A DNA stretch of 64,000 nucleotides from Alphaproteobacteria bacterium. GTDB taxonomy: Bacteria > Pseudomonadota > Alphaproteobacteria > Rhodobacterales > Rhodobacteraceae. The DNA is taken from positions 1 through 64,000 of the forward strand of contig JAUHWP010000003.1 in assembly GCA_030424645.1 (NCBI GenBank). Direction: 5' to 3'. A program made the position numbers and the translations under genes. The stretch's first letter is position 1, and each line of letters starts with the position of its first letter. The notes under the pieces are model-generated. The model searched no databases. It saw only the letters and a program-made list of their open reading frames with translations, and was not told where the DNA came from. This document shows positions 1,894 to 46,451 of this stretch, one piece after another.

Positions 1894-4695
1894 TCAATCC
1901 GGGGGTGACGCCAGCACCTCGTCTATGGCGCGGGCGGCGGCCCTTGCCCTGGTCTCCAGTTCCTTGACCAGCGCCGCCTCACTTTCGGCACCAGTCTCAC
2001 GCAAGAGCAAGTCCTGACCGCCCTTCCCCAGCGCGTCAAGGTCCAATGGACCTTCGGACAACAGTTTCGAGACCGCCTGCAACCGCCACATCAGGTCGTG
2101 ACTGTCCGCCATCGCCTGCCCCTGTGCGTCGGAAAACCAGCCAAGCGCCACCCCTTGCGCGATCTGCGCGGCGGGGGCGCGGGCGGTGTCATGGGACAGA
2201 AGGGCGGCAGCCTGCGCCACCAGCTCCACATCCTGCAAATGCCCGACGCCCAGCTTGGCATCCAGCGCACCACCGCCGGTTTTCGCCTCTGCGATCCGGC
2301 CCCGCATGTCGATCACATCGGCGACCACCTTCTTCGGGTCGCGATCAAACGCCATCACCTCGGCGCGTGCGGCGTCATAGGCGGCGGTCACATTGTCCGG
2401 GCCGGTTACGACGCGGGCGCGGGTCAGCGCCAGGTGTTCCCAGGTCCAAGCCTCGTCCCGTTGATAGGCGCGGAAGCTGCCGATCGAGGTTGCGACCGGC
2501 CCCTGCCGACCCGACGGGCGCAGGCGCATGTCGACCTCGTAAAGCCGCCCTTCGGCCATCGGCGCGGACAGGGCGGTCAGGAAGGCTTGCGTCAGGCGCG
2601 CGTAATAGGTGCGGGTGGCCAGCGGACGGCGGCCTTCGGATGTCTCTTCACCTTCGGGGTCATAAATCATGATCAGGTCAAGATCCGAGGTCGCCGTCAG
2701 GCTGCGCGCGCCCAGTGACCCCATCCCGATGATCGCCGCCCCTGCCCCCGGCGGGTCGCCATGTTTGGCGGCAAAGTTATCGACCACCACAGGCCAGATC
2801 GCCCGGATTACCGCGTCCGCCAGATCGCTGTATTGCGTGCCCGCCTCGCGCGCCGTGATCAGCCCGCGCAACAGATGCACCCCGATACGGAAATGCCATT
2901 CCTTCATCCAGCGTCGCGTGCCGTCCAGCCGCGCCTCGTAATCCGGCAGGGTGCGCAGGCGGCGGTCAAGCTGCGCCTGAAGCGCGTCGGCCCCGGGCCA
3001 ATCTTCGAAGAACCCACCACCGATCACCGCATCCAATACCTGTGCGTTATGTCCCAGATATGTCGCCAAAGCAGGTGCCGTGGCGGCGATATCGACAATC
3101 AAGTCTACCAATGTCGGGTTGGCTTCGAACAGCGAAAACAACTGCACACCGGCAGGCAGGCGCGACAGGAACCTGTCGAAATGGATCAGCGCCTCGTGCG
3201 GGCGCGGCGCATCCGCAAGCCGGGCCAGAAGGTCGGGCTTCAGGCGGTTGAAAATCTCGACCGCGCGGGCGGATCGCAGGCAGGGATAGCTTTCCCAGCG
3301 GCGCACGATCTCGACCTCGGTCTCGTCCAGCTCGGGCGTGTCCGCCGCCGACCCGTCCGGGGCAAAGAACCCTTCTGTGACGGTATGCACCTCGGACAAG
3401 GCATCGTGGATACGCGATTTCAGGGCATCGGTATCCCCTTCCCCCATCATGCGCGCCAAACGGTCGAACCCGTCTTCGGTCGACGGCAGCTTGTGCGTTT
3501 GCGCGTCGCGCATCATTTGCACCCTATGTTCGACCTCGCGATGAAAGCGGTAGTGATCGGTCAGCGTCTGCGCCACGTCACCGGGAATCCACCCCTTGCC
3601 CGCCAGTGCGGCCAGCCCGTCGACCGTGCCGCGCACCCGCAGGCTTTCATCGCGCCCGCCGGCGATGATCTGTCGGGTCTGGGTGAAAAACTCAATCTCG
3701 CGAATACCGCCGCGCCCCAGCTTCATATCGTGGTCGGGCAAGGTGATGTCGCCATGCAGCCCTTTGTGTTCGCGAATGCGCAGGCGCATGTCATGGGCGT
3801 CCTGGATGGCGGCGAAGTCCAGATGCTTGCGCCAGATGAACGGGCGCAACCGGGTCAGATAGGCATCCCCCGCCGCGATATCGCCGCCGCAAGGACGCGC
3901 CTTGATATGCGCCGCGCGTTCCCATGTGCGGCCAAGGCTTTCGTAATAGCGTTCGGCCGCCTCCATCGAGACACAAACCGGGGTGACGGCGGGATCGGGG
4001 CGCAGGCGCAGATCGGTGCGGAACACATAGCCATCGGCGGTCAGCTCTGAGAGCATCGCGCTCATCTTACGGGTGGCGCGGATATGGCTGGCGCGTGCCT
4101 CGTGAAAATCCGCGCCTTCGAAGCGGCTGTCATCGAACAGCATGATCAGGTCGATATCCGAGCTGTAGTTCAGCTCGTGCGCGCCCATCTTTCCCATCGC
4201 CAGCGCCACCATGCCGCCTGCCGTGGCAATGTCCTGATCGGTCATGCCGGGCAGCTTGCCGCGGCGGATTTCCTGTCCCACCTGGAATTGCATCGCGGTG
4301 TCGGTCGCGTGATCGGCCAGATCGGTCAGCGCGCCCGTCACCTGTTCCAGCACATAGACACCGGCCAGATCGGCAAGCCCCGCCAGCAGGGCAATGCGCT
4401 GCTTGGCAATGCGCAGGGTGGCGCGGAGGGCGCTGTCGCTGTCGGCCTCGGGTGACACCTCTGCCAGCACCGCGGCCATCGCGTCTTCGGGCGCACCGGC
4501 CAATGCTGTGCGCAACCATTCGGCCTGGCTTTCCATCAGCCCTTTCAGATAGGGCGAACACCCCGCCGTTCCGGCCAGCACCGCACGCAGCTCGGGCGGC
4601 AGGTCGGCAAACAGCGTGTCGATATCTTGGGCCGGTTCGGCCTCGAACGGAATCGGGCAACGGGTGACGCGGGCGGAAAAGGGCTTGTGGTTCAT
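1894..4695 (-). CDS. glnE: bifunctional glutamine synthetase adenylyltransferase/deadenylyltransferase
   Basis: 933 aa with two nucleotidyltransferase modules (MGKMGAHELNYSSDIDLIMLFD and GMGSLGARSLTATSDLDLIMIYD). Confidence 0.95.
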   Translation of the reverse strand: MNHKPFSARVTRCPIPFEAEPAQDIDTLFADLPPELRAVLAGTAGCSPYLKGLMESQAEWLRTALAGAPEDAMAAVLAEVSPEADSDSALRATLRIAKQRIALLAGLADLAGVYVLEQVTGALTDLADHATDTAMQFQVGQEIRRGKLPGMTDQDIATAGGMVALAMGKMGAHELNYSSDIDLIMLFDDSRFEGADFHEARASHIRATRKMSAMLSELTADGYVFRTDLRLRPDPAVTPVCVSMEAAERYYESLGRTWERAAHIKARPCGGDIAAGDAYLTRLRPFIWRKHLDFAAIQDAHDMRLRIREHKGLHGDITLPDHDMKLGRGGIREIEFFTQTRQIIAGGRDESLRVRGTVDGLAALAGKGWIPGDVAQTLTDHYRFHREVEHRVQMMRDAQTHKLPSTEDGFDRLARMMGEGDTDALKSRIHDALSEVHTVTEGFFAPDGSAADTPELDETEVEIVRRWESYPCLRSARAVEIFNRLKPDLLARLADAPRPHEALIHFDRFLSRLPAGVQLFSLFEANPTLVDLIVDIAATAPALATYLGHNAQVLDAVIGGGFFEDWPGADALQAQLDRRLRTLPDYEARLDGTRRWMKEWHFRIGVHLLRGLITAREAGTQYSDLADAVIRAIWPVVVDNFAAKHGDPPGAGAAIIGMGSLGARSLTATSDLDLIMIYDPEGEETSEGRRPLATRTYYARLTQAFLTALSAPMAEGRLYEVDMRLRPSGRQGPVATSIGSFRAYQRDEAWTWEHLALTRARVVTGPDNVTAAYDAARAEVMAFDRDPKKVVADVIDMRGRIAEAKTGGGALDAKLGVGHLQDVELVAQAAALLSHDTARAPAAQIAQGVALGWFSDAQGQAMADSHDLMWRLQAVSKLLSEGPLDLDALGKGGQDLLLRETGAESEAALVKELETRARAAARAIDEVLASPPD

Positions 4696-33428: not shown

Positions 33429-33543
33429 TAAAGCGTTTCGCGAAAAACCTGAATCACAGATTTTCGCGAAACGCAGGTGACATATCAGCGTGGTGCGCGG
33501 TTCGCCTTTAGCTGATGTCTCAGGTCAAAGGCGAAACGCTTTA
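33429..33543. repeat. 115-bp two-hairpin intergenic repeat, copy 1
   Basis: TAAAGCGTTTCG...CGAAACGCTTTA 12-bp terminal inverted repeats; two internal stem-loops; same length and layout as 45096-45210. Confidence 0.82.
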
Positions 33544-44289: not shown

Positions 44290-45093
44290 ATGTCCGTATT
44301 CAGAACGCTCTCAGCGACGGGATTTATCTTTGCCCTGACCGTCGCGACCGCCACCGCAGCCCCCTGCGGCAACAATGCCAACGGGTTTGAAAGCTGGAAG
44401 GCCGCATTTGCCAAAGACGCAAAGGCCGCCGGGGTCGGCCAACGCGGATTGCAGGCGCTGGCCTCGGCGCGCTATTCGACCTCGACCATCCAGGCCGACC
44501 GCAACCAGAGGTCATTCAAATATTCCCTGTCCAAGTTCATGGCGGTGCGCGGGGCCGACACCATCGTGGCGCAGGGCCGCAAACGCAAGGCGGGCAATCC
44601 GGGGTTCTATCAATCGCTGGAAAAACATTTCGGCGTGCCCGCCGGTGTCCTGCTGGCCATCCACGGGATGGAGACCGGCTTTGGCGGCTTCATGGGCGAC
44701 ACGCCCGTGGTCTCGGCGATCACCACGCTGGCCTATGATTGCCGCCGCCCGCAGTTTTTCACCCCGCACGCCATCGGCGCGCTGAAACTGGTGGATCGCG
44801 GCACGATCACTGCCAACACGCGTGGCGCAAAGCACGGTGAATTGGGTCATACGCAGTTCCTGCCGGGCAATGCCTATACCTATGGCATAGATGCCTCAGG
44901 CGACGGGCGCGTGGACCTTTACAACCTTGCCGATGCGCTGGCCTCGACCGCCAATTTCCTGCGCAAGAAAGGCTGGAAACCCGGCAGGGGCTATCAGGAA
45001 GGTCAGACCAACTTCCGCGTGATCAAGGAATGGAACGCGGCCAGTGTCTATCAGCAGGCGATTGCGATCATGGGCGCGCGGATTGACGGCTGA
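44290..45093 (+). CDS. lytic murein transglycosylase (MltB-like)
   Basis: Signal peptide; GVPAGVLLAIHGMETGFGGFMGDTPVVSAITTLAYDCRR; ELGHTQFLPGNAYTYGID. Confidence 0.92.
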   Translation: MSVFRTLSATGFIFALTVATATAAPCGNNANGFESWKAAFAKDAKAAGVGQRGLQALASARYSTSTIQADRNQRSFKYSLSKFMAVRGADTIVAQGRKRKAGNPGFYQSLEKHFGVPAGVLLAIHGMETGFGGFMGDTPVVSAITTLAYDCRRPQFFTPHAIGALKLVDRGTITANTRGAKHGELGHTQFLPGNAYTYGIDASGDGRVDLYNLADALASTANFLRKKGWKPGRGYQEGQTNFRVIKEWNAASVYQQAIAIMGARIDG

Positions 45094-45095
45094 TA

Positions 45096-45210
45096 ACAGC
45101 GTTTCGAGATTAAGCTGGATCACAGCTTGATTTCGAAACGCCCACGACATCAATAGGGTCCGAGCGTTTCGAAGTATCGTTGTGCATAAACGACAAATCG
45201 AAACGCTTTA
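45096..45210. repeat. 115-bp two-hairpin intergenic repeat, copy 2
   Basis: GCGTTTCG..CGAAACGC hairpin followed by GCGTTTCGA..TCGAAACGCTTTA hairpin; same layout as 33429-33543. Confidence 0.8.
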
Positions 45211-45231
45211 GTCGTCGGCATTCGCCGCTTG

Positions 45232-46359
45232 TCAGTCGTCGGCATTCGCCTCGGCGCGCGACTTCCCGGCCACATCCTGCGCCAGAACGGCGGCCATGAA
45301 CGCGCCCAGATCGCCGTCCAGAACCCCCTTGGTGTCCGAGGTTTCATGCCCCGTGCGCAGGTCTTTCACCATCTGATAGGGTTGCAGCACGTAAGACCGG
45401 ATCTGGTTGCCCCACCCCGCGTCACCCTTGCTTTCATGGGCTTCATTGATCGCGGCGTTGCGGCGATCCAGTTCCATCTGATACAGCCGCGATTTCAGCG
45501 CCTTCATGGCGATGTCGCGGTTCTGGTGCTGGGACTTCTCGGAACTCGTGGTCACGATACCGGTCGGGATGTGGGTGATCCGCACCGCCGAGTCGGTCGT
45601 GTTCACGTGCTGACCACCGGCACCGGACGAGCGGTAGGTGTCGATGCGGATGTCCGCCGGGTTCACCTCGATCTCGATATTGTCGTCCACCACCGGATAG
45701 ACCCAGACCGAGCTGAAAGAGGTATGCCGCTTGGCAGCCGAGTCATAAGGCGAGATGCGCACCAGACGATGCACGCCGCTTTCCGATTTCAGCCAGCCAT
45801 ACGCATTGTGCCCGGAAATCTTGTAGGCTGCGGATTTGATCCCCGCCTCGTCGCCCGCGCTTTCCGACTGAAGTTCGACCTTATAGCCCTGCTTCTCCGC
45901 CCAGCGGACATACATGCGCGCCAGCATCGACGCCCAGTCGCAGCTTTCCGTGCCGCCCGCGCCAGCGTTGATTTCCAGAAACGTATCGTTCGAGTCCGCT
46001 TCGCCGTCCAGCAGCGCCTCCAACTCGGCGGCGGCGGCTTTTTCGACCAGCCGGGCAATCGCGGCTTCGGCATCCGCGACGACCTCATCATCTTCTTCCA
46101 TTTCACCCAGTTCGATCAGGTCGATATTATCCTGAAGGTCCTGCGCCATGGCCTTGTAACTGTTGACGGAATCCAAAAGCGCCTGACGTTCGCGCATCAG
46201 CTTCTGCGCCCGCTCGGGATCGTTCCACAGGTCCGGGTCTTCGGTCATCGCGTTGAATTCCTCCAACCGATGTTCCGCCGTGTCCCAACCGATCCGCTGA
46301 CGCAACAGCGCCAGAGATTTCTCGATTGCGTCAACGTTGTTCTGAGCCTCTGCCCGCAT
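45232..46359 (-). CDS. prfB: peptide chain release factor 2
   Basis: [56 protein letters not shown]; start trimmed to 46359. Confidence 0.95.
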
Positions 46360-46451
46360 GGGTGCGTCCCTTGTCCGAAAACCTGCCCCCCGCAATATCA
46401 ACAGGGGCGCGGATGGGCAAGACGTGGCCCTCGGGCCGAGACCCTAAAACG

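Follow-up and report, generated by a model that had tools for sequence, protein, structure and literature searches.

Two-hairpin repeats of Aliiroseovarius are very probably MITEs built from the ends of IS630 elements

The stretch of DNA analysed here, 64,000 nucleotides in all and referred to as the window, carries two copies of a repeat, the second of which lies between the convergent genes of an MltB-like lytic transglycosylase and release factor 2, a setting that an earlier note on this DNA had described correctly. The features concerned are given below by window position and strand, with the hairpins assigned to the origins that are argued for further on.

33429..33543, no strand: copy 1, whole probable MITE, with TA target duplication and empty sites in G009, G007 and G014
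33433..33474, + strand: copy 1 hairpin 1, probably from an IS630 left end (CCTGAATC)
33451..33455, no strand: copy 1 GAATC (GANTC, the CcrM site) in the loop of hairpin 1, at nt 23-27 from the TA as in IS630 left ends
33497..33539, - strand: copy 1 hairpin 2, probably from an IS630 right end (CCTGAGACAT, outward reading)
44290..45093, + strand: MltB-like lytic transglycosylase, upstream neighbour of copy 2
45094..45210, no strand: copy 2, whole probable MITE, bounded by TA at 45094-45095 and TA at 45209-45210
45099..45141, + strand: copy 2 hairpin 1, 19 bp, loop GATCA, left-end-like core CTGGATCAC, alpha subfamily
45142..45163, + strand: copy 2 spacer of 22 nt, CCACGACATCAATAGGGTCCGA
45164..45206, - strand: copy 2 hairpin 2, beta-like, outward-reading on the - strand
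45232..46401, - strand: prfB (release factor 2), convergent neighbour of copy 2

With the duplicated TA counted in, copy 2 measures ~115 bp; it comprises two hairpins, the second of them followed by TTTA. Its first hairpin, formed by arms GCGTTTCGAGATTAAGCTG and CAGCTTGATTTCGAAACGC around GATCA, is present with the 19 RNA pairs, two of them G-U, that had been claimed for it; the loop had been given as GAT and is instead of 5 nt. The fold of the 126-nt copy 2 region has z = -7.6 on the + strand and -6.2 on the - strand, with 0 of 200 shuffles equally stable, and the window holds three occurrences of the palindrome pattern where 0.01 would be expected. The repeat has no Rfam match at gathering score, the sole hit in the window being a tRNA. 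Beside the insertion, the 3' end of prfB shows TCAGTCGTCGGCATTCGCC in short tandem duplications (window 45211-45250 and L199).

The ~94 full elements extracted (one duplicate parse was dropped) share the layout TAAA, hairpin, spacer of 21-23 nt, hairpin, TTTA, with hairpins of 38-44 nt, mostly 41-43, and both hairpins facing outward around cores such as CTTGAGACACAAG or CCTGAATCAC. They measure ~112-115 bp, bear the TIR AAGCGTTTCG and contain no transposase gene, the features of a MITE. Several hairpin subfamilies exist and are joined in pairwise combinations, copy 2 being alpha plus beta and copy 1 a different pair, while the spacer of the A. crassostreae copies, CCGCAACATCAGTAGGTTTCGA, is related to that of copy 2. 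Single-hairpin copies exist too, and deletion between direct repeats CGAAACGC could explain them.

The palindrome is found in 16 Aliiroseovarius genomes, and copy number among 21 congeners varies from 0 to 122 hairpins per genome, the highest figure belonging to A. crassostreae (G019); the reversed control pattern has nearly no matches in the genus. In the wider family, 23 genomes out of 397 have the pattern, and several genera besides Aliiroseovarius contain clear elements; named matches come from plasmids of A. crassostreae, Roseovarius and Octadecabacter, and no feature is listed at any of the 12 best places. In a scan of named genomes chance hits predominate among the matches listed, and a strict two-end pattern applied to 385 Alphaproteobacteria matched in its own genome only. 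One insertion is common to four species (G002, G004, G015 and G018; L177, L175, L035 and L185) and differs little among them; two of its copies are identical across the whole element, and a local function is possible there. An apparent plasmid contig (L392, G281:C82) carries two complete MITEs in opposite orientation, at 1294-1404 and 3579-3689, flanking a 723-aa VirD4/TraG-like conjugation gene.

Comparison of related genomes reveals these elements as insertions. For copy 1, the empty site reads CCCTAACGGGTG (also given as CCCTAACGGG) in G009 and CCCTAGC in G007 and G014, while the occupied site in G000 reads CCCTA-element-TAACGGG; at this locus, and likewise at L018 and L235, the empty site has a single TA and the occupied site a double one. 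All 17 A. crassostreae copies have the form T|AAAGCG...CGCTTT|A and mostly YTA...TAR, the adjoining T and A being partly imposed by the search pattern, and the preferred target is YTAR. At the mltB/prfB junction the element is absent from G006, G007, G009 and G012 and common to G000 and G014, in whose ancestor copy 2 was inserted. The TA duplication of copy 2 itself is deduced from its relatives, since its left end has drifted (TAACAGCG as against TAAAGCG) and short tandem duplications have arisen at the junction. A 2-bp TA duplication is that of IS630/Tc1-mariner elements.

The ends of the MITEs indeed match, at up to 25 of 26 bases, those of a ~1,056-bp IS630-family (DDE_3) insertion sequence of other Rhodobacteraceae. 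Copies of this element (HTH_Tnp_IS630 plus DDE_3; NF033545), found by a search with the IS630 N-terminus of G317, bear ends of the form TAAAGCGTTTCGACATTAACCTGAGA, which agree with the MITE consensus at 25 of 26 positions; in the 13-copy element of G221 (L426), the left end TAAAGCGTTTCGGCTTGAACCTGAATC agrees with the MITE end consensus at 22 of 26 and the right end TAAAGCGTTTCGACATTAACCTGAGACA at 25 of 26. Proteins of the related L424 match HTH_Tnp_IS630 and DDE_3 / IS630 transposase, and among the relatives with a name is WP_127898215 of Paracoccus marcusii (L455). In L424 the transposase (1477-2458) occupies two overlapping frames (..SYKKRT / HIKKG..), which suggests programmed frameshifting. 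Degraded IS630 copies with such ends also occur in G317 and G133, which belong to other genera and contain the MITE: TAAAGCGTTTTGCG stands ahead of an IS630 N-terminus in G317 and GCGGAAACGCTTTA directly after an IS630 C-terminus in G133. One hairpin of copy 1 is left-end-derived and the other right-end-derived.

No intact IS630 with MITE ends occurs in the 21 Aliiroseovarius genomes, G019 with its 122 hairpins included. MITEs are known to outlive their partners, a transposase in the same genome being usual and not strictly required. The DDE_3 elements within Aliiroseovarius were rejected as partners on account of their non-matching ends. Neither of two widely spaced hairpin pairs proved to be an autonomous element: the pair 1.1 kb apart in G386:C11 has no transposase inside and a membrane-protein-like ORF, and the pair 2.4 kb apart in G281:C82 belongs to two complete MITEs with no transposase and the conjugation-like gene between them. 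The former (L393, 1037-2162), an outward hairpin pair with TA ends around its ORF, is possibly a cargo-carrying element.

Two inverted, outward-facing hairpins with a constant 5' tetranucleotide would also suit a REPIN/BIME moved by a Y1 transposase of the RAYT type, or ends derived from IS200/IS605, and A. crassostreae, the richest genome, has eight Y1_Tnp matches. Insertion of the present element duplicates TA, however, which Y1 enzymes are not known to do; Y1_Tnp is absent from 19 of the 21 congeners, most of which carry the pattern; and the Y1 copies of A. crassostreae resemble IS200 and bring their own hairpins, one of these copies lying inside a MITE. A search of the 21 congeners for a RAYT-type Y1 transposase returned only these IS200-like copies and one weak match in G006. 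Given TA duplication, IS630 end identity and the distinct ends of IS200, both REPIN/RAYT and IS200/IS605 ends were ruled out as sources, a reading that we regard as barely credible. IS200-like Y1 copies sit directly beside or inside MITEs at L191 and L193 of A. crassostreae, apparently more often than the density of the MITE would lead one to expect.

Copies 1 and 2 are very probably MITEs, non-autonomous transposons built from IS630 (Tc1/mariner-like) ends, and not RNA elements; transposition, one of three roles that the earlier note had listed, is strongly supported by TA duplication, the empty sites and the IS630 ends. The element is composed as TA-AAGCG[hairpin], a 22/23-nt spacer and [inverted hairpin]CGCTT-TA. 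The outer ~26 nt of a hairpin corresponds to an IS630 terminal repeat, either of left type (CTGAATC) or of right type (CTGAGACA), and the inner arm mirrors this repeat. IS630 ends have no such mirror arm, a putative copy of the outer one, and the hairpin therefore belongs to the MITE alone. An IS630 transposase acting in trans would presumably recognise both ends and cut out the element, which would then be pasted into YTAR with duplication of TA.

Whether the pairing itself is selected is a separate matter. That diverged arms still pair holds across subfamilies and species: inner positions are paired in 87% of cases among 98 distinct 43-nt hairpins, compared with 62% (67% at most) after arms have been exchanged at random among the hairpins, and within subfamilies pairing is kept in 52 of 56 double changes, counts that do not represent independent events because the copies share ancestry. 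Compensatory change from copy 1 to copy 2 had been proposed; the two copies belong to different subfamilies, so that what separates their arms is divergence between subfamilies rather than change within one copy lineage. Among single changes, G.U occurs 84 times and A.C 65 times, or 39 and 41 when counted as distinct states, and this equal frequency means that no strand is favoured. Transversions (CG to GC, AT to TA) account for many of the compensations, and these cannot pass through G.U. In five orthologous insertions with 184 stem pairs, 27 pairs changed on one side and only one on both, the latter to a non-Watson-Crick state, and variable positions are about equally common in stem (29/368) and spacer (10/112). 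Copy 2 itself, compared between G000 and G014, has three one-sided stem changes in hairpin 2 and one G.U/G-C change in hairpin 1.

Selection of the pairing at each locus, with the hairpins serving as RNA processing sites, terminators or sRNAs, would account for the 19-bp stem of z = -7.6 and for the covariation across subfamilies. We consider it very improbable, as G.U is not in excess of A.C among new changes, insertions common to several species decay on one side, stems vary about as much as spacers, elements are polymorphic for presence and absence, and no Rfam family applies. The earlier suggestion of selection for RNA structure is therefore not supported, given the lack of a G.U excess, the transversion compensations and the one-sided decay; uncompensated arm changes, named beforehand as the observation that would count against it, are what the common insertions contain, a result that speaks against function at a given locus. 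The pattern is consistent with pairing restored whenever elements are copied from well-paired sources, together with homogenisation of arms by template switching. Under the IS630-end origin preferred here, arm complementarity would be kept by such copying and by template switching during replication, a documented mechanism for homogenising arms (PMC8794818), rather than by selection on RNA at the locus. Compensatory changes of textbook appearance in a bacterial hairpin can thus arise without detectable RNA selection, in transposon ends.

A more restricted role is conceivable for copy 2 alone, namely that the MITE was later co-opted as a bidirectional terminator for mltB and prfB. In the sister species G002, G003, G005, G015 and G017, where the junction is intact and the element absent, a GC-rich hairpin of the ordinary terminator-like kind stands at this place; it is missing in G000 and G014, which have the MITE in its stead, and the stem of the MITE is long and stable on both strands. 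On the other hand, neither stem is followed by a U-tract (CGCTTTAG), G006, G007, G009 and G012 manage with neither element nor GC-rich hairpin, and hairpin 2 has accumulated the one-sided changes described above. A secondary terminator role is accordingly possible, though it seems unlikely.

The parental ends carry a further feature, a GANTC site for the CcrM methyltransferase. In the 15 IS630 relatives whose left end could be assigned, which leaves out the R. sullae and S. fredii copies, it starts at nt 23, counted from the terminal TA. It stands at the same offset in four more alphaproteobacterial plasmid copies, from Microvirga, Bosea, Hoeflea and Azospirillum brasilense, the sequence of the last having been read by eye. 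Its middle base may be A, T, G or C, the site compares with a background of 0.2% per position, and the right ends of IS630 have no GANTC at this offset. Loci with the left-end site include L424, L426, L428, L430, L433, L435, L441, L443, L449, L453, L455, L456, L460 and L461; often, a second GATTC follows 7-13 nt on and a third lies near the start codon. Among the MITEs, copy 1 keeps GAATC at nt 23-27 and copy 2 has GGATC, and GANTC survives in 11 of 188 hairpins of the collected set, most Aliiroseovarius subfamilies having lost it.

As a kind of element, the repeat is an ordinary MITE; a literature search, with most subscription papers outside its reach, found no account of this family, whose parent is nevertheless well supported. 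With REPIN/BIME and their RAYT (PMC3116915) it shares the inverted hairpin pair and many intergenic copies, and differs in its TA duplication, IS630 ends and want of a RAYT. ERIC and Correia/NEMIS are likewise MITEs of 100-160 bp with TA ends, whose transcripts are structured and are reported to affect the mRNA next to them (PMC2229807), but they form a single end-to-end stem instead of two hairpins and their terminal sequences are unrelated. RUP of Streptococcus pneumoniae is of 107 bp and thought to be mobilised by IS630-Spn1 (PMC2229807); like the present element it is non-autonomous, ~110 bp long, intergenic, present in high copy, inserted at TA and furnished with terminal repeats in common with an IS630. 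RUP has other sequence and hosts, however, and is not described as two separate hairpins, whereas the Aliiroseovarius MITE consists of two end-derived hairpins and a 22-23-nt spacer.

The architecture equals that of CIR1-4, the CcrM-associated intergenic repeats of Caulobacter and Brucella (Chen & Shapiro 2003). A summary of that work gives ~110 bp, two long stem-loops with a linker, TA ends and GANTC in one loop, and speaks of their mobility as needing more information (PMC2229807). The likeness extends to length, the two stem-loops and linker, TA ends, intergenic position and alphaproteobacterial hosts; GANTC in a loop is seen in copy 1 and not in copy 2, and most Aliiroseovarius subfamilies are without it. 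We hypothesise that CIR may have the same origin in IS630 ends. Beyond this, it is tentatively proposed, with the odds somewhat against it, that the alphaproteobacterial two-hairpin repeats, and by extension CIR, are MITEs of one IS630 lineage in which a left-end CcrM site is obligatory and transposition or transposase expression is coupled to the methylation state of GANTC, which depends on replication, much as Dam and its GATC sites gate IS10 and IS50. If true, the CcrM association of CIR would be inherited from transposon ends and would not be a regulatory device of the host. Whether an IS630 lineage is linked in this way to CcrM, a cell-cycle methyltransferase, can be tested and deserves follow-up, and IS630 ends with TA duplication offer a mechanism of mobility for a two-hairpin architecture whose movement had been called unexplained.
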